From IMG/VR virus record IMGVR_UViG_3300046811_000186, positions 1 through 48,145 of that record: 48,145 nucleotides of DNA, one strand, 5' to 3'. Below the pieces are notes generated by a model. It was not told the origin of the DNA and ran no database searches. It was given only the letters and a program-made list of their open reading frames with translations. Positions 5,823 to 30,452 of the stretch are shown piece by piece (within the stretch, counting starts at the first letter, position 1; the number at the start of each line of letters is the position of its first letter). Made by a program: the position numbers and the translations under genes. The stretch is from a virus.

Positions 5823-6464
5823 ATGATACCGAAGAAGAGAGGGAACTTCGACCCAGCGAAGTCGGCTATCAACTGTGGGTGCGACCCGGGCATCAACTGG
5901 ACCTGCGAGCGGTGCCTTATCGAACAGCGCGGCTCGCGCATTCAGAAGACCCCGGATGGCGGAGAGATTCTTGTGGTGCTTGCACCGAAGGAGGAGCTTC
6001 AAGTGGTCATCGAACACAAAGACGCGCAGACGGACATCGCGTTCCAAGGGTTAGACGCCATCAAGCGTGAGGACGATGCGAAGTATCGTAAGGCCATCAG
6101 CGAACCGGAGTATCGCAAGCAGCGCGAGGCACTCAAGGCGAGTCGGCCGGGTGTGTTCCCGGAGTCAGCCGCGGGCCGGAAGACCTATCCGCTGTTCACC
6201 GGGCTGTTGATGTATTTCCCAGATGCGCTCGCGGCGGTCTCTCACGTCAGCTACAAGGGCAACGAGCAGCACAATCCCGGCGAGCCCCTGCATTGGGCGC
6301 GTGAGAAGTCCACGGACCAGACGGATACCACGATTCGCCACATGGTGGACCACGGAGTCGGGCATACGAAGGACAGCGACGGCGGCTATCACCTCGCGAA
6401 GGCGGCTTGGCGAATCCTCGCGGAGTTGCAGTTGACCATCGAGAAGGAGAGGGGGATTCGATGA
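5823..6464 (+). CDS. dATP/dGTP diphosphohydrolase-like protein, 213 aa
   Basis: The N-terminus has clustered cysteines (C18, C20, C28, C31), possibly a metal site. The C-terminal 100 residues hold the all-helical pattern of the phage dATP/dGTP diphosphohydrolase N-terminal family (PF18909): 'LFTGLLMYFPDALAAVSHVS', 'GNEQHNPGEPLHWAREKS', 'RHMVDHG' and 'HLAKAAWRILAELQL'. Members related to MazZ cleave dATP and dGTP to the monophosphates. The start is directly after the previous stop; the stop overlaps the next ATG (ATGA). With the deoxyribosyltransferase-like gene it forms a nucleotide-metabolism pair. Enzymatic specificity is inferred from the family. Confidence 0.8.
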   Translation: MIPKKRGNFDPAKSAINCGCDPGINWTCERCLIEQRGSRIQKTPDGGEILVVLAPKEELQVVIEHKDAQTDIAFQGLDAIKREDDAKYRKAISEPEYRKQREALKASRPGVFPESAAGRKTYPLFTGLLMYFPDALAAVSHVSYKGNEQHNPGEPLHWAREKSTDQTDTTIRHMVDHGVGHTKDSDGGYHLAKAAWRILAELQLTIEKERGIR

Positions 6465-17172: not shown

Positions 17173-17201
17173 AGTCCCATACCCTAAAAGTTCGTGGGAC
17201 T
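17173..17201 (-). terminator. Weak terminator-like hairpin after ATPase gene
   Basis: A perfect 7-bp stem AGTCCCA/TGGGACT with a 15-base loop starts in the stop codon of the ATPase gene and is followed on the minus strand by TGATTT. The T-tract is short, so termination would be partial. Confidence 0.35.
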
Positions 17202-18165
17202 AAATCTCGTGAACAAGGTGATATTGCTTGTTTTCCTTAATGATTTCGCTGTTTTCCTTTAGTCTCTCCAAATGTCGGAAAAACGATGTTCGGCTCAGTC
17301 CCAACTGCTGTTCTGCGAGGGACTGCCACTCTGTGACGCCCATAGCGCCATTCTCATAGAGGAGATTGAGCACAGCGCTTTTCTTCACCGACACTTCAGT
17401 CTGCCGAGTCTCGTTGACAATGACGATGGTATCCTCGTCGGGCATATCGCGCGTCCTCAGGATGAGGTCTTCGAATTCCTCCGCGTCCTTTTGCTTCGAG
17501 CACGTAAGGGTGAGCGCGCCTTTCTTGTTCGAGAGGGAGAGCATAGCGTCTGCTGCGCCACGGAACGCAGTATTGCCTCGCTCACGGTCCCCATCGAGTC
17601 GAGTATGATGCACGACGAGAACGGTAGTATCAAACTCTTTACGAAGCCTGTCGATTCCGGCGACAAAGCGACCCATGTCGGCTTGCTGATTTTCATCGCC
17701 GTCGAAGCAGCGCGCAAGCGTATCAATGACGATAAGGTCTGGGACAACGTTTGCCTCCTCAATGCGCTCCATGACACGGGCCATTCCGTCCGAATCCGCG
17801 TAGACGGGAACGCTCTCGGTGAGCCATCCAGCAACGGCCTGGGATGGCTTGAGCTTGCGATAGCGGAGCCAGCCCTTGATGCGCTTGCCCATGCCCGCGG
17901 AACCCTCCGCACAGACATACAAGGGATAACCCTGAGTCACCTTGTGCCCCTGCCACAGACCACCAGCGGCCACAGACAAAGCAAGGTCCGACGCCAGAAA
18001 ACTCTTCTTAACCCCCGGAGGTCCATAGAGCCCCACGAGCCCACCAGCGGGGACAATCCCTTCAATGAGCCACTCCGGCGCTGGTAACTGCATCATCTCC
18101 TGCGTGCTATACAGGCGCATAGCGCCCGGCTGCGTCAGGGGGAAGGTCGAAGGCCGGGAGCCCAT
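17200..18165 (-). CDS. RepA-like (AAA_25) P-loop ATPase with C-terminal winged helix, 321 aa
   Basis: The ATPase core has Walker A GPPGVKKS at 48-55, in the relaxed form GxxxxKKS that occurs in phage members of the RepA/AAA_25 group, a Walker B strand 'VPDLIVIDTLARCF' near 135-148, and the sensor-like 'VLVVHHTRLDGD' near 190. 'YVCAEGSAGMGKRIKGW' is also typical of the group. The last 70 residues (AVLNLLYENGAMGVTEWQ, then LGLSRTSFFRHLERLK) form a winged helix for DNA binding. It is likely a replicative helicase or helicase loader, and no DnaB-like gene is seen elsewhere. The start overlaps the upstream stop (TAATG). Confidence 0.85.
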   Translation of the reverse strand: MGSRPSTFPLTQPGAMRLYSTQEMMQLPAPEWLIEGIVPAGGLVGLYGPPGVKKSFLASDLALSVAAGGLWQGHKVTQGYPLYVCAEGSAGMGKRIKGWLRYRKLKPSQAVAGWLTESVPVYADSDGMARVMERIEEANVVPDLIVIDTLARCFDGDENQQADMGRFVAGIDRLRKEFDTTVLVVHHTRLDGDRERGNTAFRGAADAMLSLSNKKGALTLTCSKQKDAEEFEDLILRTRDMPDEDTIVIVNETRQTEVSVKKSAVLNLLYENGAMGVTEWQSLAEQQLGLSRTSFFRHLERLKENSEIIKENKQYHLVHEI

Positions 18166-18312: not shown

Positions 18313-18504
18313 TCAGAAGATGCGCGAGGCGCTGTTGAGACGATAGCCGTTGCGCTCGGTGATGATGTCGAAACCATCGTCACGCAGAGCAACGATGTCC
18401 CGACGAACAGACGGCACCGGAGCGCCAACGTGCGCGGCCAACACTCGCGCGTTCAACACCGCCTCTTTCAACAGGTTGTAAATCTTCGTCTGACGTTCGC
18501 TCAT
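18313..18504 (-). CDS. HTH transcriptional regulator-like protein, 63 aa
   Basis: TGAGGA lies before the ATG. The whole protein is one winged helix-turn-helix of the HTH_11/DeoR type: 'RQTKIYNLLKEAVLNARVLA', recognition helix 'APVPSVRRDIVALRDDGF', wing 'DIITERNGYRL'. It is the clearest transcription-factor candidate in the minus-strand early unit and may bind one of the palindromes in the divergent control region. Confidence 0.8.
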   Translation of the reverse strand: MSERQTKIYNLLKEAVLNARVLAAHVGAPVPSVRRDIVALRDDGFDIITERNGYRLNSASRIF

Positions 18505-18565: not shown

Positions 18566-18769
18566 TCAGGCTCGACCGAACAGGCGCTGCATACGTCGGA
18601 GAATACTCTGCTCGGTCTCGCGTGGAATGTGGACATATCGCGATTCCCTCATCCCTTCAGACAGCCGGCGAACCGCGATGCGACGGCGCCGCTTCGCTGA
18701 CTCCCACCCTGTGAGGCGGTCGGCCAGTGGGCGAAGCTGGCCGGTGGTGTTCGTGCGGTGACTAGTCAT
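18566..18769 (-). CDS. Small basic protein, 67 aa
   Basis: The ATG at 18769 overlaps the stop of the upstream 36-residue gene (ATGA) and has AGAAGG before it. The sequence is very Arg-rich (WESAKRRRRIAVRRLSEGMR) and could bind nucleic acid. No family recognised. Confidence 0.6.
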   Translation of the reverse strand: MTSHRTNTTGQLRPLADRLTGWESAKRRRRIAVRRLSEGMRESRYVHIPRETEQSILRRMQRLFGRA

Positions 18770-19381: not shown

Positions 19382-19395
19382 GACAGTTAACTGTC
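19382..19395. promoter_or_regulatory. 14-bp palindromic operator candidate GACAGTTAACTGTC
   Basis: A perfect 14-bp palindrome in the divergent control region. On the minus strand it is directly followed by TTAATAC, a plausible -10 element, so a bound protein would block leftward transcription of the gene at 19256. A half copy, GTTAACTGT, is at 19270-19278, and related motifs occur at 23780-23793 and 24523-24556. Confidence 0.55.
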
Positions 19396-19421: not shown

Positions 19422-19466
19422 AATTCCTACAGACACCGGGATTAAACCAAAATTCCTACAGACACC
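19422..19466. repeat. Two direct copies of AATTCCTACAGACACC
   Basis: The identical 16-mer occurs at 19422-19437 and 19451-19466, a spacing of 29 bases. Each copy can pair with a nearby sequence (GGTGTC at 19411-19416 for the first, CTGGGT near 19481 for the second), giving two comparable hairpins. They may be protein-binding repeats in the control region. Confidence 0.5.
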
Positions 19467-19524
19467 CAGTTTAAAATGGAGCTGGGTGGTGTAGGGCTCG
19501 ACTGTGCAGTGCCCGATTGTCTAT

Positions 19525-19573
19525 TTCACAAAAGGTCTAGTTCACACTTAGTCGAGTTCACACAAGGTCCATA
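19525..19573. repeat. Three TTCACA-type direct repeats (iteron-like)
   Basis: TTCACA begins at 19525, 19541 and 19556, each followed after three variable bases by RGTCNAG or RGTCCAT, giving three 15-16-bp units. They lie just upstream of the proposed rightward promoter. One-and-a-half helical turns per unit suggests cooperative binding by an early regulator or an initiator protein. Confidence 0.55.
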
Positions 19574-19606
19574 TATGCTGGAATGGATGTTGCTAGGCGT
19601 TTTGGC

Positions 19607-23109: not shown

Positions 23110-23534
23110 GAGACCTTGACGCCTTTACGCGAGCGTATCTCATTGCCGCATTGTGGACTTCCGACCCTTGCCCAGAGTCCGGAGAATTTGAAGAGAGAGA
23201 CGATTGGAGCATTGCACGTATTGATGCGCCGTCCATCGAACGCGCTATCGAAGTCTGCGCGGACTTTCAGAGCGCTAACCGTGCGGACCTGGACGAAGTA
23301 TCCGACACCTATCATGTAGACGATGCAAGGCATGGTGTGGACTTTTGGCTAACCCGCAATAGGCACGGGGCTGGATTCTGGGACAGAGGCTATGGCGCAT
23401 TAGGCGAGCGCCTCACAAGCGCCTCACATCCATATGGTGAAGCGTATGTGCAAGGTCCGGAAACCGCGGATAACGGTAGCGCAACAGAGGACATGATTGC
23501 GGCATGGGATGGAGTCATTAGCATTTATGACTAA
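23106..23534 (+). CDS. Conserved phage protein (FWLTRNRHGAGFWDRG), 142 aa
   Basis: ATGA-coupled, with AGGAGAG before the ATG at 23106. The N-terminus 'FTRAYLIAALWTSDP' and the core 'GVDFWLTRNRHGAGFWDRGY' with 'LTSASHPYGEAYVQG' form a signature that I know from many actinobacterial and proteobacterial phages. The family is widespread in early regions, but its biochemical role is unknown to me. This is the best conserved member of the block. Confidence 0.8.
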   Translation: MRDLDAFTRAYLIAALWTSDPCPESGEFEERDDWSIARIDAPSIERAIEVCADFQSANRADLDEVSDTYHVDDARHGVDFWLTRNRHGAGFWDRGYGALGERLTSASHPYGEAYVQGPETADNGSATEDMIAAWDGVISIYD

Positions 23535-23769
23535 ACAAGATAGGCAAATGGTGAAGATTGTCCGCGCTATCAATGCGGGCAAATGGACGGACGATTTGCC
23601 CAATTGGGCGAATGCAAATCTTACAGTAACTACGTTCGATGATGAGCATGAGGAGGCGAGCGCCTTGCGAGCCGTTCAAACCGCGGAAGCGTATACGGTT
23701 CTAAGACTTAGCGCAGATGGCGCTTGGGACATGTTCTCCTTTCTCCGCGCATGCGGGTTAGTCGCGTAA
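23527..23769 (+). CDS. Early protein, 80 aa
   Basis: The ATG at 23527 overlaps the previous gene by eight bases; the ribosome site is weak (GGAG about 14 bases before). The N-terminus is helical and basic (TKQDRQMVKIVRAINAGKWT), the rest mixed. Last gene of the tight cluster. No family recognised. Confidence 0.6.
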   Translation: MTKQDRQMVKIVRAINAGKWTDDLPNWANANLTVTTFDDEHEEASALRAVQTAEAYTVLRLSADGAWDMFSFLRACGLVA

Positions 23770-23779
23770 ACGCTACCAC

Positions 23780-23825
23780 GTTAACTAGTTAACACGGAAT
23801 TCATACCCATAACCATACGGTTATG
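23780..23825. promoter_or_regulatory. Palindrome GTTAACTAGTTAAC plus hairpin before last early gene
   Basis: A perfect 14-bp palindrome at 23780-23793 shares the GTTAACT core with the palindrome at 19382-19395. A 7-bp hairpin CATAACC-ATAC-GGTTATG follows at 23808-23825. Both lie in the 72-bp gap before the gene at 23842, so this gene is probably regulated separately from the block before it. Confidence 0.45.
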
Positions 23826-23841
23826 AAAGGATACAGAACCG

Positions 23842-24093
23842 ATGAGCCCCAAAGCAGTAAAGACGGCAGAAACGGCGCAAACGCTCGCAAGTTTCCAACA
23901 TGGTAGCGGTAACGGCGCTATCGCCTCCGATGATGAAACGTTAATCCTGGAGGCGCTTATCATTGCGAGCGGTCACCTGGAGGAAAGCGCCAAAGCGATA
24001 CGCTTGTATGAGCCGCGGTCACCGTTAGCCTTGCGTCTGACAGGCTTCGCGGATAAAATGACTGACTTGCACGCTCGCTACACGAATGCCTAA
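23842..24093 (+). CDS. Small early protein, 83 aa
   Basis: AAAGG about 12 bases before the ATG. Ala/Ser/Thr-rich start, then two helices (TLILEALIIASGHLEESAKA and LALRLTGFADKMTDLHARY). No motif recognised. It is separated from the tight cluster by a palindrome-containing gap and followed by a hairpin terminator. Confidence 0.65.
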   Translation: MSPKAVKTAETAQTLASFQHGSGNGAIASDDETLILEALIIASGHLEESAKAIRLYEPRSPLALRLTGFADKMTDLHARYTNA

Positions 24094-24106
24094 GCGATAC
24101 CGCTAG

Positions 24107-24132
24107 CGAGTCCGCAATCTACCGCGGACTCG
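24107..24132 (+). terminator. Strong hairpin at end of early block
   Basis: A perfect 9-bp stem CGAGTCCGC/GCGGACTCG with an eight-base loop, 14 bases after the last stop, followed by TTCCCTCCTTCGTTCCC. The T-tract is broken by C, so it is an imperfect intrinsic terminator, but the position supports the role. Confidence 0.55.
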
Positions 24133-24232
24133 TTCCCTCCTTCGTTCCCTCTGTCAAGTCCCGTCCGATAAGGAATCTTATGTTAACTTGCGCCTACTCC
24201 AGGTGAGCGCATAGGCGCCTTCCGCCGTCAAG

Positions 24233-24436
24233 GTGCAAGTGCTTTGCGTCCCAAAGCGTGCAACGCAGTGATAGCTAGTGATAGGCAGTGATAGACTGTG
24301 CAACGCTATGCCATCACTGTGCAATCTAGTGATAGATAGTGATAGGCTGTGAAGTTACGCGCAGTAGGTATGCAATGGTGTGCAACCCAGTGATAGACCG
24401 TGCAGTAGGGGGACACCCCGTGCAGTTGTGTGCATC
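24233..24436. repeat. Iteron-like array of AGTGATAG and GTGCAA motifs (origin candidate)
   Basis: AGTGATAG occurs six times, at 24267, 24277, 24287, 24328, 24338 and 24389. The first three and the next two are spaced exactly 10 bases apart, one helical turn. GTGCAA occurs at 24233, 24258, 24298, 24319 and 24380, with variants (ATGCAA, GTGCAG twice, GTGCAT) in between; two of the copies are GTGCAACGC, 40 bases apart. No gene is present in 24094-24551. Phased, clustered repeats in a convergent intergenic region are typical of replication origins or partition sites. Flanking hairpins are at 24168-24181 and 24241-24257. Confidence 0.6.
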
Positions 24437-24474
24437 AGTGGGTCGCGGTGCCCCAGCGAAATTTTTTCCCAATG

Positions 24475-24508
24475 AAAAAGGCCCGACCCTCGGTGAGAGA
24501 GTCGAGCC
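24475..24508 (-). terminator. Intrinsic terminator of leftward block
   Basis: On the minus strand GGCTCGAC pairs with GTCGGGCC (one G-U pair, which would be a mismatch on the plus strand), followed directly by TTTTTC. It ends the minus-strand unit that starts at 27973. Confidence 0.8.
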
Positions 24509-24522
24509 AAAAGTCGAATCGG

Positions 24523-24556
24523 TATTAACTGTATTAACTGAGTTAACCCAGTTAAT
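24523..24556. repeat. Tandem TATTAACTG repeats with inverted copy
   Basis: TATTAACTG is present twice in tandem (24523-24540), followed by AGTTAACC and an inverted CAGTTAAT (24549-24556), giving a perfect 8-bp inverted repeat with an eight-base spacer. The motif matches the palindromes at 19382 and 23780. It overlaps the end of the metallopeptidase-like gene. Confidence 0.5.
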
Positions 24557-25064
24557 CCCGGAGCACCATCGCCGCGTGGTAGATAGCCGGGAATTCCGTC
24601 ATCAGGAATCCCGCACAGGTCCACCGAGCCGGCGAGAGATAGCGCGCATGTTCGAGGAGCGCGTCTCCACGGGTTAACAGCGCCACGCCTTCCGCGAAGC
24701 AATCACCTTCGGGACCACTCACCCAATTAGGCTGCATCGTGTGACCGCCTTCATGCGCGAGCACTGCCGCACGCGCCGACCAGTGCAAACCCTCCTCAAT
24801 GAAAATCATGTGCTTGCTGGGGACCGTCAACCCATAGACGGACTGACCCATGAAGTTCAGGTCCTTCTCATACTTGACTTCCCAACTCAGGGAGACGAGG
24901 CGAGCCTCCAGGTTCAGGGCATCCCAGTATCCCTGGTCATCCGAGGAGAACCGCGTTTGCCCCGGATGCACCATGAACATCTCTGCGCCCAGAAGGACCA
25001 GCCGAACCGGGGCCAGCATATACAGCATCCCAACCAGGATGCCCAGTGTCACGTATCGAACCAT
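24552..25064 (-). CDS. Membrane-anchored HEGGH metallopeptidase-like protein, 170 aa
   Basis: Residues about 4-25 are an N-terminal membrane helix or uncleaved signal (VTLGILVGMLYMLAPVRLVL). The domain behind it has a zincin motif in 'AVLAHEGGHTMQPNW' (HExxH) with a downstream acidic 'GDCFAEGVALL' that could supply the third ligand. The layout suggests a periplasmic or extracellular zinc peptidase. With no endolysin recognised elsewhere, it might take part in wall or envelope degradation; that is an inference. Last gene of the leftward block, ended by a strong terminator. Confidence 0.75.
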   Translation of the reverse strand: MVRYVTLGILVGMLYMLAPVRLVLLGAEMFMVHPGQTRFSSDDQGYWDALNLEARLVSLSWEVKYEKDLNFMGQSVYGLTVPSKHMIFIEEGLHWSARAAVLAHEGGHTMQPNWVSGPEGDCFAEGVALLTRGDALLEHARYLSPARWTCAGFLMTEFPAIYHAAMVLRD

Positions 25065-25120
25065 CGCCTATGTCTCCTGTGAAACGGGTAACGTGTTTCG
25101 CGCGCCTCTTCGAGTCGCGC

Positions 25121-26470
25121 TTAGCCTCCGCAGGTCCATCCTGCGCTTCTAAAGTAATCTCGGCTTCTCTGCTGGTCCTCGCTGGTCTGTTGCCCCCTAA
25201 TGAAGTAGTATTCGCCGACCCATTCAAACGCGCAGTGGACGTAGGGTCCACGCGGAGACCCTGGAGCCAAGTAACCGGCGCCGCTGAAGCTGTCGGCGTC
25301 CCCTGGCTGGTCGCCCGGCTTCCTGTAGAGGAACCCCAGCATCCTGGCGCCAATCTGCCAAATCATGTTCCCGTTGTAGTCGGGTCGTCCTAGGCTATCG
25401 AATCCGTTGATGTGGACTCGCCAGTCGCTATCGTTGGGTCCGTTGAATTCGGCAAGCAGGAGGTCTGCCCAGACCATACGCCCGCCCGGCTGATAGTCCG
25501 CCCCGCCCTCACCTACCGGGATTCGTCCCGGCTGATGTTCGATGCCGCAATACACGAACAGGGCTCGGCATTTCTCTCCCCACTCCTGGACGTGCTCCGG
25601 GGTGTAACCGTAGAACACGCCATCGAATCCCGGCAGCACGACCACGTAAGGAGCAAGGTCTCCATACTTGCTTTCCCTGAGCTGGTGCCTGAGGGAGTCG
25701 AGCTGAGCCATCGCAACCGGGAACCCCGCCTCGCCATCGTCACCTCCAAGGAAAAGAATCTGCTTGTTGAATCCGTTGCGCGCCGCCTCGGCGACAAGGT
25801 CCGCGATGCGACCGTCGTTCGGGTCCGACCAATCCAGGGGGCCGAACCTGTCCGCACTATAGGGCTGTCCCGGCTCGTCGTAGAGCGGGGGTCCACTGGG
25901 CAAGAAGATAAGCGCATGGCTATCTCCGCCCGGCCACGCGGTCGAGGCGTGCTTGGCCGCATACACAGCCGCCCGGTCCGCGTCGTTCAACCAGGGCAGC
26001 GCGGGCTCGAACCAGGGGAGCAGCCCATACTGCTCCGTCTGCACATAGAGCCCTTGGAACGTGATGTGGAGCTGCAGAATCTCGTCCCGTGTGGGAGGCG
26101 CTGGTAACGGTGGAATGTTGGGCTTCAGCTCGAAGATAACATTCTGCATGTCAATCTTCGGAGGCTCGATGCTCCAGCCGTTCTTCACGAAGCCGTCCGC
26201 GGTAATCCACACGTCGCTGTAGGGAATCTCGGACGTGAACAGCGCGTAGCCGTCGCCGTTCGACAGCTTATGCACGTAGCCGGTCGAACTGTTCACCGCG
26301 ATATCCGCGCCCACGATAGGCGCGTTGCACGGCTGTGAGGCGTTCGAGCATGAGACGATGCCAAACGTATAGACCGGCACCGTGGTCGGCGGAGGCTGCG
26401 TGGGTGGGCGTCCGCCTGAGATAGCCCCACAGCCAGTGAATAACAGCGCGGCGAGAAGAATTCTCTTCAT
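25121..26470 (-). CDS. Exported lipoprotein with carboxypeptidase-regulatory-like domain, 449 aa
   Basis: The ATG at 26470 overlaps the upstream stop (TAATG) and opens a lipoprotein signal (MKRILLAALLFTGCGAISGG, lipobox FTGC). A Pro-rich linker is followed by a beta domain (about 35-110, with 'NAPIVGADIAVNSSTGYV') like carboxypeptidase regulatory domains. The remaining 320 residues are rich in Trp, Gly and Asp ('DRFGPLDWSDPNDGRIADLV', 'EHAQEWGEKCRA'-like stretches, 'AFEWVGEYYFIRG') and look like a glycosidase-type barrel, though I cannot name catalytic residues. Possibly a cell-surface exclusion factor or glycan-degrading enzyme. Confidence 0.75.
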   Translation of the reverse strand: MKRILLAALLFTGCGAISGGRPPTQPPPTTVPVYTFGIVSCSNASQPCNAPIVGADIAVNSSTGYVHKLSNGDGYALFTSEIPYSDVWITADGFVKNGWSIEPPKIDMQNVIFELKPNIPPLPAPPTRDEILQLHITFQGLYVQTEQYGLLPWFEPALPWLNDADRAAVYAAKHASTAWPGGDSHALIFLPSGPPLYDEPGQPYSADRFGPLDWSDPNDGRIADLVAEAARNGFNKQILFLGGDDGEAGFPVAMAQLDSLRHQLRESKYGDLAPYVVVLPGFDGVFYGYTPEHVQEWGEKCRALFVYCGIEHQPGRIPVGEGGADYQPGGRMVWADLLLAEFNGPNDSDWRVHINGFDSLGRPDYNGNMIWQIGARMLGFLYRKPGDQPGDADSFSGAGYLAPGSPRGPYVHCAFEWVGEYYFIRGQQTSEDQQRSRDYFRSAGWTCGG

Positions 26471-26649
26471 TACGCGGGTCTCCTTGACGCTGGCACCATG
26501 AGGGTCGGCGTCGTCCACGGGTCCGTGAGCATCTGGAACGCGAGACGCAGGTCTACGCGCTCCTCAGGTGTGACGGGCACGGGAAGATTTTCTTGTGTCT
26601 CGGCTAACCTGCACAGGGTTCGCAGGACTTGCGCTCGCGTGCGTGACAT
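26470..26649 (-). CDS. Small helical protein, 59 aa
   Basis: The ATG at 26649 is preceded by AAGGAT, and the stop forms TAATG with the lipoprotein start. The N-terminal 86 bases overlap the preceding gene in a different frame. The sequence is one or two helices (SRTRAQVLRTLCRLAETQEN, then VTPEERVDLRLAFQML). Function unknown. Confidence 0.55.
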   Translation of the reverse strand: MSRTRAQVLRTLCRLAETQENLPVPVTPEERVDLRLAFQMLTDPWTTPTLMVPASRRPA

Positions 26650-27722: not shown

Positions 27723-27973
27723 TACGGAGCCTCCTGATACAGGATGTAACGCGGCTTGTCCCGTTCAGGGACCTCAACCACAGGACCCGGCACAAAAGCT
27801 TCCGGGAAGAACCGCTCGTTGCCCTCGACATACCCGACGATGCGCCGGATACCAGACTTCTCCCGAACCACAATACGCTTGCGGATGACCTCGACAGTGG
27901 ACACGTTGAACCCTCCCATAAGGATATATGCAAGGAACGTGCCGGGCTGGACATAATGCAAGAAGTGTGCCAT
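27722..27973 (-). CDS. Hypothetical protein, 83 aa; first gene of leftward block
   Basis: Two starts are possible, ATG 27973 and ATG 27919; neither has a clear ribosome site. The first lies inside the late promoter of the opposite strand. The product has a hydrophobic N-terminal stretch (FLHYVQPGTFLAYILMGGF) and a beta-rich C-terminal half (EVIRKRIVVREKSGIRRIVG). It is the first gene of the minus-strand block. Unknown function. Confidence 0.55.
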   Translation of the reverse strand: MAHFLHYVQPGTFLAYILMGGFNVSTVEVIRKRIVVREKSGIRRIVGYVEGNERFFPEAFVPGPVVEVPERDKPRYILYQEAP

Positions 27974-27976
27974 AAT
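27948..27976 (+). promoter_or_regulatory. Strong sigma70-type promoter for packaging/structural genes
   Basis: TGGACA (27948-27953) and CATAAT (27971-27976) are each five of six bases to consensus, with the ideal 17-base spacer. Transcription would start near 27983, about 12 bases before the GTG of the small terminase gene. Confidence 0.75.
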
Positions 27977-27994
27977 AAGAAATGGAGGCTACCT

Positions 27995-28654
27995 GTGGCT
28001 GTTTCGCGAAAGAAAAAGAAGGCGAACGGGCGCCCGCGCATTCTGGGACCCAAAGTTGTAGTGAAACAAGACGTGGCTCCGTCCCTCCCTCCGGAGCCCG
28101 ACGCTGAGACGCCACAGGTAGCCGCTATCCTCAGTCCTAAAGATTGGACAGACCGAAGCAATCGTCCGCCCAAGGACCACCCCGCGTATTCCTGGTGGCT
28201 CCCGGAGGACAGTAAAGTCCGCCCGGTTGCGATGCAAATCATCGCGATGCGGTTGTCGGGCATGAGCGATGCGGACATTGCCAAGCACATCGGCATTAGC
28301 GAGAAATCCATCAGCCCCTACGTTTACCGGGCGACCCGGAACGGGTGGCTCGACATCGACTACAACCCCAAGGAACGTATCCAATTCCAGGTGATGCACA
28401 AGGTGGTGCAGCAGCTCGAAGAGGGTCTCGCGGACGGTCAGCGCATGAACACGGGCATGAAAGTTCGCACCGCGGTTGCGCTCAAGGTAGCCGAAGGAAC
28501 CCTCTTCAAACAATTCGACCAGCAACAGGCGCAAGTGGCGCCGTCAACGGTGGTCGCTGTGCAGGTGATTATGCCCGATGGACCGCGCCAAGAAATACGC
28601 GAGGACACCACGGGCGGCACACCTGCCTACATAGACGCAGAAACTGGGAGTTAG
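27995..28654 (+). CDS. Terminase small subunit-like DNA-binding protein, 219 aa (GTG start)
   Basis: GTG at 27995 with TGGAGG six bases before it; longer frames upstream run through the promoter and are rejected. The N-terminus is Lys/Arg-rich (VSRKKKKANGRPR). A helix-turn-helix follows at about 95-130 ('MRLSGMSDADIAKHIGISEK' then 'YVYRATRNGW'), and then a helical oligomerisation region (QVMHKVVQQLEEGLADGQ). HTH plus coiled region immediately before the large terminase is the normal place and layout of the small subunit, which recognises the packaging site. Confidence 0.8.
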   Translation: MAVSRKKKKANGRPRILGPKVVVKQDVAPSLPPEPDAETPQVAAILSPKDWTDRSNRPPKDHPAYSWWLPEDSKVRPVAMQIIAMRLSGMSDADIAKHIGISEKSISPYVYRATRNGWLDIDYNPKERIQFQVMHKVVQQLEEGLADGQRMNTGMKVRTAVALKVAEGTLFKQFDQQQAQVAPSTVVAVQVIMPDGPRQEIREDTTGGTPAYIDAETGS

Positions 28655-28656
28655 TC

Positions 28657-28851
28657 ATGCCTTACAATGAAGTGATGCCGAAGTTCAAAGCGGGCGCGCT
28701 CCATAGCGGCTCGAAGAGTGGTCCGAAGGTCAGCAACCCGAAGCAAGCGGTCGCTATCATGTATAGCGAGAAGAAAGCTGCGAAGGCCGGCAAGAAAGAA
28801 TACCAGCCCGCTTCACTCAAAGGCTTGGAGTCCGCAGCAAAGCGGAAGTAA
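28657..28851 (+). CDS. Small Lys-rich protein, DUF6496-like, 64 aa
   Basis: GGGAG precedes the ATG; the stop overlaps the large terminase start (TAATG). The sequence 'PKFKAGALHSGSKSGPKV' followed by 'NPKQAVAIMYSEKKAAKAG' matches the DUF6496-type pattern of small phage and bacterial proteins. Function unknown. Its tail resembles that of the 64-residue protein at 2445-2639. Confidence 0.75.
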   Translation: MPYNEVMPKFKAGALHSGSKSGPKVSNPKQAVAIMYSEKKAAKAGKKEYQPASLKGLESAAKRK

Positions 28852-30452
28852 TGGCCGCATACGTCAAGAAGACGCGGCTCCCGCCCGGATGCGGTGATAA
28901 CCTTAACGAACCCTATCTCTACAACCCCTACATCCACGGAGACCAAGGCTTTTTCGCCGCACTGCGTAAGCGTGTGTGCTTGAAATGTAAAACGCTGGGC
29001 GAGCATGACTCGTTCGGCGTTTTTCTGTGTCCGAAGTGTGGCGTGAGCCACACCAGCAACCTGACCGCGCCCCGCGCGTTCGACCGATTGCTGCTCCTTG
29101 CGGGTCGAGGTGGCGGCAAGACCCTCGGTGGGGCGCACGCGGTGCGTCAGGAGCTGATGATTCCCAACTCCCATTGGTGGGCGATGGGACCAACCTTCAA
29201 GATACTCCATGACTCTACCTTTCCTACCCTCGTCAAGCTCATTAATCCCGATTGGGTCGCCGATTGGAGCGAGGAGCACATGGAGCTTCGACTCAAGAAT
29301 GGGTCGATGGTCTCCTTTCGGTCGCTGGAGGACCCTGAGCGCGCACGCGGACCACATGGTCTTGCGGGCGGATGGCTCGATGAAGCCGCACAGTCTCCCG
29401 AACGCGCCTACGACGTCTTCGAGCCAACGCTGATTAAAGCGGGCGGCATCATCATCGCCAGCACCACGGTGCTCGGCTATGACTGGACCTACGACAAGAT
29501 AGAAAAGCGCGCCCTCGTCTATAAGGAGCCGGGTTACTGGTCTACTCGCTGGTGGACAGAGGAGAATCCCCTGTTCCGCTCGAATCCGGTAATGCTCCGA
29601 CAGATTGAGCAAGCGCGGAAGCGAATGGAGCCAGCGTTCTTCGCGCAGGAATACAAGGCGGAGCGCAGGAATGCGACTGGCCTTATCTACGATTACTCCC
29701 TTATCGAGGAACAGAGCATCCTGACCGCGGACGCGATGAAAGCGTTCATCCCGGAGTGGCCGGCGATTGACCCTTCGCGGCCAGTCATCGTCGGGCTGGA
29801 CTCCGGTGCGGACCATCCGTTCGGCGCCGTGATGATAGTGGCGACCTCCAAGGGATTGGTGGTTGTCGGCGAATACTTGGAGCGACAGAAGGCCATCTCC
29901 CAGCACATCATGCCTATTGGTATGAAGTTCGGTCTTCCTCGCTTCACCAATGTGAAGTGGGCGGCGAACAAGAACGAAATCAACCTACGTTTGGAGTTTG
30001 GGCTCAAGAGTATCGGAGTTATCCAAGCGGAGAACAAACACGAGGTGGGCATCCAGCGCGTGCAGAGCTGGCTCTACACGAAGCAGCTCTTTTTCGCCTA
30101 CACCGTTCCGACCGTCATCGAACAGATGCGCGCTTATCGGTATGCGAACAACCTGAAGCCTGATGGCTCGAAGAAACCGAAGGAAGCGGTCTTCAAGGTC
30201 AAGGACGAACTTCCGGACGCGGTGCGTTACGCCCTGATGGCGTGGCCGGCGCTCCCGGAAGCAGAGGAGCCTACACGGACGCCGCGGGAACAGGCGCGTT
30301 GGGAAGCCATGTCGGATGAAACGCGCGCAGACGTTGAGCGTATCAAGGAATACGAGGAGCGGTCGAAATCTCGAGATTTAGAGGACGACCATCCACTGTT
30401 TCCAATGGGTGAATTCTTCAATCCTGAGGGGGATGAGTATGTGGATTCGTAG
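28851..30452 (+). CDS. terL: Terminase large subunit with zinc ribbon insertion, 533 aa
   Basis: Packaging motor and nuclease. Walker A is AGRGGGKT at 84-91, Walker B 'AGGWLDEAAQ' near 172-181, and the nuclease domain has 'VIVGLDSGADHPFGAVMI' (first Asp of the RNase H-like site) and 'KDELPDAVRYALM' near 445. Before the ATPase lies a zinc ribbon (C43-x2-C46, C60-x2-C63), which most large terminases lack. The C-terminal 60 residues are charged and may contact the portal. Length is normal for the family. Coupled to the upstream gene by TAATG. Confidence 0.95.
   Translation: MAAYVKKTRLPPGCGDNLNEPYLYNPYIHGDQGFFAALRKRVCLKCKTLGEHDSFGVFLCPKCGVSHTSNLTAPRAFDRLLLLAGRGGGKTLGGAHAVRQELMIPNSHWWAMGPTFKILHDSTFPTLVKLINPDWVADWSEEHMELRLKNGSMVSFRSLEDPERARGPHGLAGGWLDEAAQSPERAYDVFEPTLIKAGGIIIASTTVLGYDWTYDKIEKRALVYKEPGYWSTRWWTEENPLFRSNPVMLRQIEQARKRMEPAFFAQEYKAERRNATGLIYDYSLIEEQSILTADAMKAFIPEWPAIDPSRPVIVGLDSGADHPFGAVMIVATSKGLVVVGEYLERQKAISQHIMPIGMKFGLPRFTNVKWAANKNEINLRLEFGLKSIGVIQAENKHEVGIQRVQSWLYTKQLFFAYTVPTVIEQMRAYRYANNLKPDGSKKPKEAVFKVKDELPDAVRYALMAWPALPEAEEPTRTPREQARWEAMSDETRADVERIKEYEERSKSRDLEDDHPLFPMGEFFNPEGDEYVDS

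Follow-up and report, generated by a model that had tools for sequence, protein, structure and literature searches.

What is the function of short, helically phased repeats at a site where two phage transcription units converge? In the window, i.e. the whole stretch of 48,145 nucleotides analysed here, six exact copies of AGTGATAG, all on the + strand, start at positions 24267, 24277, 24287, 24328, 24338 and 24389 and are interleaved with five GTGCAA hexamers at 24233, 24258, 24298, 24319 and 24380. The 10-bp spacing of these repeats, described in the first-pass annotation, is borne out by counts, shuffles and a test for period 10. All six AGTGATAG copies fall inside 130 bp, where 0.70 would be expected in the whole window and none of 100 shuffled sequences gives six; base matching at period 10 in the array exceeds that of every shuffle, and 24201-24500 is the richest repeat stretch of the window. 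Across the whole window, GTGCAA is merely ca. 1.8-fold in excess, hence the unusual part is the phasing and not the word. As GTG starts are found at 24258/68/78/88/98, at 24319/29/39/49, and at 24380/90 and 24400/20/30, with an additional ATGCAA at 24370, a more accurate description of the array is ~17 decamers in which the phase shifts twice by 1 bp.

This run of GTG- or ATG-led decamers, all on the + strand, spans ~180 bp (24258-24436) and falls into three blocks, with a mean period of ~10.1 bp. Block 1 (24258-24308) consists of GTGCAA, three AGTGATAG and GTGCAA in 10-bp steps, and block 2 (24318-24358) of GTGCAA, two AGTGATAG and GTGAAG, again in 10-bp steps but shifted by +1. Block 3 (24370-24436) contains ATGCAA, GTGCAA, AGTGATAG and GTGCAG, followed by GTGCAG and GTGCAT beyond a G/C block described below. 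The RNA fold of the array is unremarkable (z -0.85). The helical phasing supports what had been the natural reading of the letters, namely that the array may be a site outside transcription units where protein would bind to one face of the DNA.

The array sits between two convergent terminators, so that the convergent units and flanking hairpins noted earlier are confirmed. A hairpin at 24105-24134 (+ strand, 11-bp stem, weak T-run, z -5.0), with equivalents in the relatives L019 and L023, closes the block of small + strand genes, and the intrinsic terminator at 24480-24508 (- strand, read from 24508 to 24480, z -5.0) ends the - strand unit comprising 24552-26518 and on. Within 23700-24900 no promoter-like site was found. 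The window is a circular record with a 127-bp exact overlap of its ends, and its map runs from the early block through the site to TerS, TerL, portal and capsid, an order in keeping with a packaging site. The probable small terminase TerS (27944-28654, + strand) comprises an HTH followed by long helices; its predicted structure, with a mean pLDDT of 64, yields just a generic HTH match. The large terminase TerL (28851-30452, + strand; Terminase_3, phrog_2) has distant matches to T5-like phages and is not of the HK97 type. The terminase genes are non-adjacent to the site (3.3-4.4 kb off). Two further features were observed in the surroundings. The window contains 11 copies of GTTAACT (2.2 expected), a number reached by no shuffle, among others at 19385, 23780, 24182 and 24541; several of the copies border the early gene block. 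A hairpin, CATAACCATACGGTTATG, at 23810-23830 precedes the gene 23842-24093, and the near-identical ATAACCATTCGGTTATG lies ahead of the homologous position in L019.

Relatives were found via TerL and form an uncultured phage clade with TerL identities of 37-84%. In L019 and L023, the closest relatives, the homologous junction was located by synteny, using the orthologues of 23497-23769 and 23842-24093. Exact AGTGATAG-type repeats, whose conservation in close relatives had been expected, are missing from both, though the place is kept: other short repeats adjoin a shared core of ~50 bp, made up of a GGGGGACCCCC block, ~40 bp, and then a (G/C)GAAAATTTTTT A-tract. In the window, the G/C block GGGGGACACCCC is located at 24408-24419 and the A-tract GAAATTTTTT at 24458-24467, both on the + strand. 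After L019 and L023, the core was first recognised in L024, L026, L028, L029 and L030, and a loose rule added L062, L064-L068 and L076. Of the 19 loci examined, 15 (the window plus 14 relatives) thus contain it, always 2.0-4.6 kb upstream of TerL; from the A-tract to the TerL start the distance is 4.4 kb in the window and 2.0-4.6 kb in the relatives. No core was recognisable in L073 and L074, nor in L021 and L070, of which the latter two may be too short.

Apart from an insertion in L076, the alignment of the 15 cores, which includes both the G/C block and the A-tract, is nearly gapless, and the ~40-bp stretch between the two elements holds a common CGAAGG-GTGCCTGCGCG-like part. When a stricter motif was fitted to the first eight cores, three of seven later loci matched at the same spot, with 0.035 expected from shuffles. 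A looser core pattern run over whole loci yields chance matches, and therefore the evidence is the conserved place together with the alignment, not the pattern alone. Searches with the region gave just chance matches of about 22-32 bp in isolated phages. The genome-contig search yielded a single partial match (31%).

The short repeats left of the core differ between relatives in both sequence and period. In many loci word repetition exceeds the local control, with a control share of <=0.03 for the window, L023, L024, L028, L064, L065 and L076. Period 10 is clear in the window and three relatives (L028, L030, L067) and weaker in L026; L076 shows a period of 16 and L023 one of 17, and none was observed in the remaining loci. 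The array motif is also out of step with the terminase phylogeny, as L019 (83% TerL identity) is without it and L067 (62%) has GTGCA(A/G) decamers. A search for a GTGCAR binder among proteins common to the window and L067 but missing from L019 found none. Of the binders suggested in the first-pass annotation, the small protein 18313-18504 does have a real HTH_11 match, but nothing links it to the array. An HNH protein was also considered, since AAAGYGCTTT-like arrays pair with an HNH gene in L019, L023, L024, L026 and L029; it was rejected because L062, L064 and L076 have HNH genes with other arrays. L030 carries further repeat arrays at 1750-1960 and 6180-6360, with TGCACCTA/TAGGTGCA and GTGAGCG(G/C)AGGACACTCAACC units.

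Across the relatives, the core travels together with the genes for packaging and the head. TerS homologues were found in all 16 relatives searched, while the window helicase was matched in 8 and the window polymerase in 7 of 13; some relatives are fragments, for which reason gene absences there weigh less. The 47 kb L030 genome matches the window almost solely in head, packaging and tail genes, and keeps the core, a 10-bp array, TerS and TerL with no match to the window DNA polymerase or helicase. Similarly, the complete circular L024 genome keeps the core with a nearly unrelated polymerase. An HNH gene is present in nine related loci and lies right of the core in all eight of these with a core; with the relatives' profile, no HNH gene was detectable in the window. 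The proteins of this HNH-type family, encoded to the right of the core in many of the relatives, are very small (71 aa, e.g. L019:6356-6568 and L023:5648-5860).

When 2.9 million viral contigs were scanned for the pattern, at least five AGTGATAG decamers turned up in one unrelated phage (L010/L015). Its tandem AGTGATAG(A)T decamers, at L010:1-50 and L015:3750-3815, with one contig starting within the array, are located ~300 bp upstream of its TerS/TerL. As support for packaging this is no more than a hint, since looser GTGATA arrays are also found in other settings. Of these, 20 stretches were found next to terminase, primase, replication initiator or integrase genes, and with such mixed neighbours the motif alone is uninformative on function. 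A scan for the exact motif with AGTGATAGNNAGTGATAG returned 15 stretches, most of them single pairs or recurrences of one unrelated locus. GTGATA decamers at exact 10-bp spacing, mostly intergenic, were seen in many unrelated phages (L123, L124, L138 and others).

The phased array, the conserved core, their place between the terminators and the co-occurrence with terminase genes point to a role in DNA packaging. From sequence comparison and analogy we consider the locus to be, on balance, a site for DNA packaging, probably of a cos-like kind, flanked on its left by a phased array that changes quickly; what we infer is the binding and cutting, the polarity and the kind of DNA end. Within the core at 24408-24467, the concatemer would be recognised and cut by the terminase. 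The A-tract is the proposed recognition element of the small terminase, and the large terminase would cut in the GC-rich 20-25 bp left of it; by analogy with HK97, the cleavage region is predicted at 24430-24457 (+ strand), with cutting 15-22 bp left of the A-tract. An additional signal could come from the GGGGGACACCCC block, whose position is like that of cosQ in lambda. The array would offer ~17 sites on one helix face to an oligomeric protein, either the terminase or an accessory protein, which may bend the DNA or keep it in place, or determine packaging specificity; the array appears to be quickly replaced between relatives. Contig ends were rejected as evidence for cutting: none of those inspected lies at the predicted cut, and L028, L062 and L026 begin 140-460 bp left of the A-tract at differing points.

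The locus had originally been proposed as a replication origin or partition site. In an iteron-type origin, a phage initiator, e.g. the RepA-like ATPase 17200-18165 or the HTH protein 18313-18504, would load on the repeats and open the DNA nearby. Iteron origins such as P4 ori and those of plasmids contain short direct repeats in helical phase, which the array shares, together with its location outside transcription units, and in L125 and L138 GTGATA decamers have primase or replication-initiator genes close by. Here, position and conservation follow the packaging genes and not the replication genes. The core follows TerS/TerL and is kept in genomes without the window polymerase and helicase families, while G001 and G002, with helicases 70% and 72% identical to that of the window, have different repeats. 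Moreover, the A/T tract is just 9-10 bp long, the core is GC-rich, and an AT-rich opening region is absent. A skew switch had been anticipated near 24.3 kb; cumulative GC skew has a local maximum at 24,449, at the junction of convergent genes, but its global minimum is at 18,710 (maximum 7,628), away from the array. An origin at the array is hence unlikely. A repeat cluster at 19.4-19.6 kb, near the skew minimum at 18.7 kb, is the better origin candidate. In this divergent early region, TTCACA..GGTC(T/G/C)A units recur every 16 bp at 19480-19590, a candidate replication origin or early operator, and ATTCCTACAGACACC occurs twice, ~28 bp apart, at 19424-19470. Related GTC(C/G)A(T/G) units are spaced by ~15 bp in L019:1915-1985 and L023:860-950, and TTTCCTACAGACACC is found twice in L019:1843-1895.

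The repeats could also form an operator array, at which a phage repressor or nucleoid-type protein would silence or insulate the junction with no role in packaging. Turnover of the motif is typical for operators, AGTGATAG resembles repressor half-sites, and GTGATA arrays are present in several contexts in other phages. But the genes on either side converge and end at the junction, which lacks a promoter-like site over the range given above, and the conserved core would be left unexplained. This explanation is less likely still than an origin. Most improbable by far is a centromere-like partition site of a plasmid-like phage. The 10-bp phased repeats are similar to ParR/TubR or omega-type sites in form only; these normally adjoin their own par operon, and neither a partition ATPase nor a ParR/TubR partner stood out among the subset of proteins scanned. 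A sub-case sharing most of the evidence is a packaging site of the pac or short-terminal-repeat type. The circular assembly with its terminal overlap is compatible with all types and TerL is of the Terminase_3 type, but cos is favoured by the neighbouring HNH genes and by an arrangement of elements like that of HK97. We give this variant a small share, slightly above that of an origin.

If the packaging-site reading is right, the genome ends and the packaging signal of an uncultured phage clade with genomes of ~47-51 kb would be marked from sequence alone, and an origin call would be corrected that would otherwise enter annotations. With a stable terminase core beside a rapidly changing array, packaging specificity would become testable in vitro.

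The proposed site shares several features with known cos sites. At the right ends of HK97 and HK022, ATCA recurs every 10 bp (period-10 p below 0.001), followed by a G-run and the cut, and the left end carries a GATTTTTTT A-tract at ~+22. In HK97 this A-tract is a proven small-terminase site: the protein requires and binds positions 15-29 to the right of the cut, where it reads a G and the A-tract (PMC11331095). The window has the same order of 10-bp repeats, G-run (present as the GGGGGACACCCC block left of the predicted cut), predicted cut region and A-tract. A nearby HNH gene, as seen close to cos in HK97, D3, PSA and phiC31, is a feature of many relatives, with none found in the window. Unlike in HK97, the G-block and A-tract are separated by ~40 bp instead of ~64, the core is ~20 bp shorter, the window terminase genes are kilobases away, and TerL belongs to another family. 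In PSA, too, a C/G block is followed by the cut and then an A-tract, and phiC31 has a G-block just left of its end. The end of the phiSLT record was discarded as a cos comparison, as it turned out to be an attachment end with a toxin gene next to it.

In lambda, cos consists of cosQ, cosN and cosB, with several small-terminase sites within one ~200-bp region (PMC4669245). The window locus would likewise bring multiple protein sites together in a region of this size. A short GC-rich signal, the cut region and the A-tract GAAAATTTTCC follow one another there in the same order as in the window core. The R sites of lambda are on the right-hand side of the cut, in the direction of the terminase gene, whereas the window array lies left of the predicted cut, and the IHF-type arrangement is a lambda feature with none shown for the window site. 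Neither D3 nor lambda has a 10-bp array or a period-10 signal. Very tentatively, this clade and HK97/HK022 may indicate that cos-type packaging sites in general include an overlooked component, an array of helically phased short repeats left of the cut. There, a fast-evolving specificity cassette, read by an oligomeric packaging protein on one face of the DNA, would stand beside a slowly evolving cut core.
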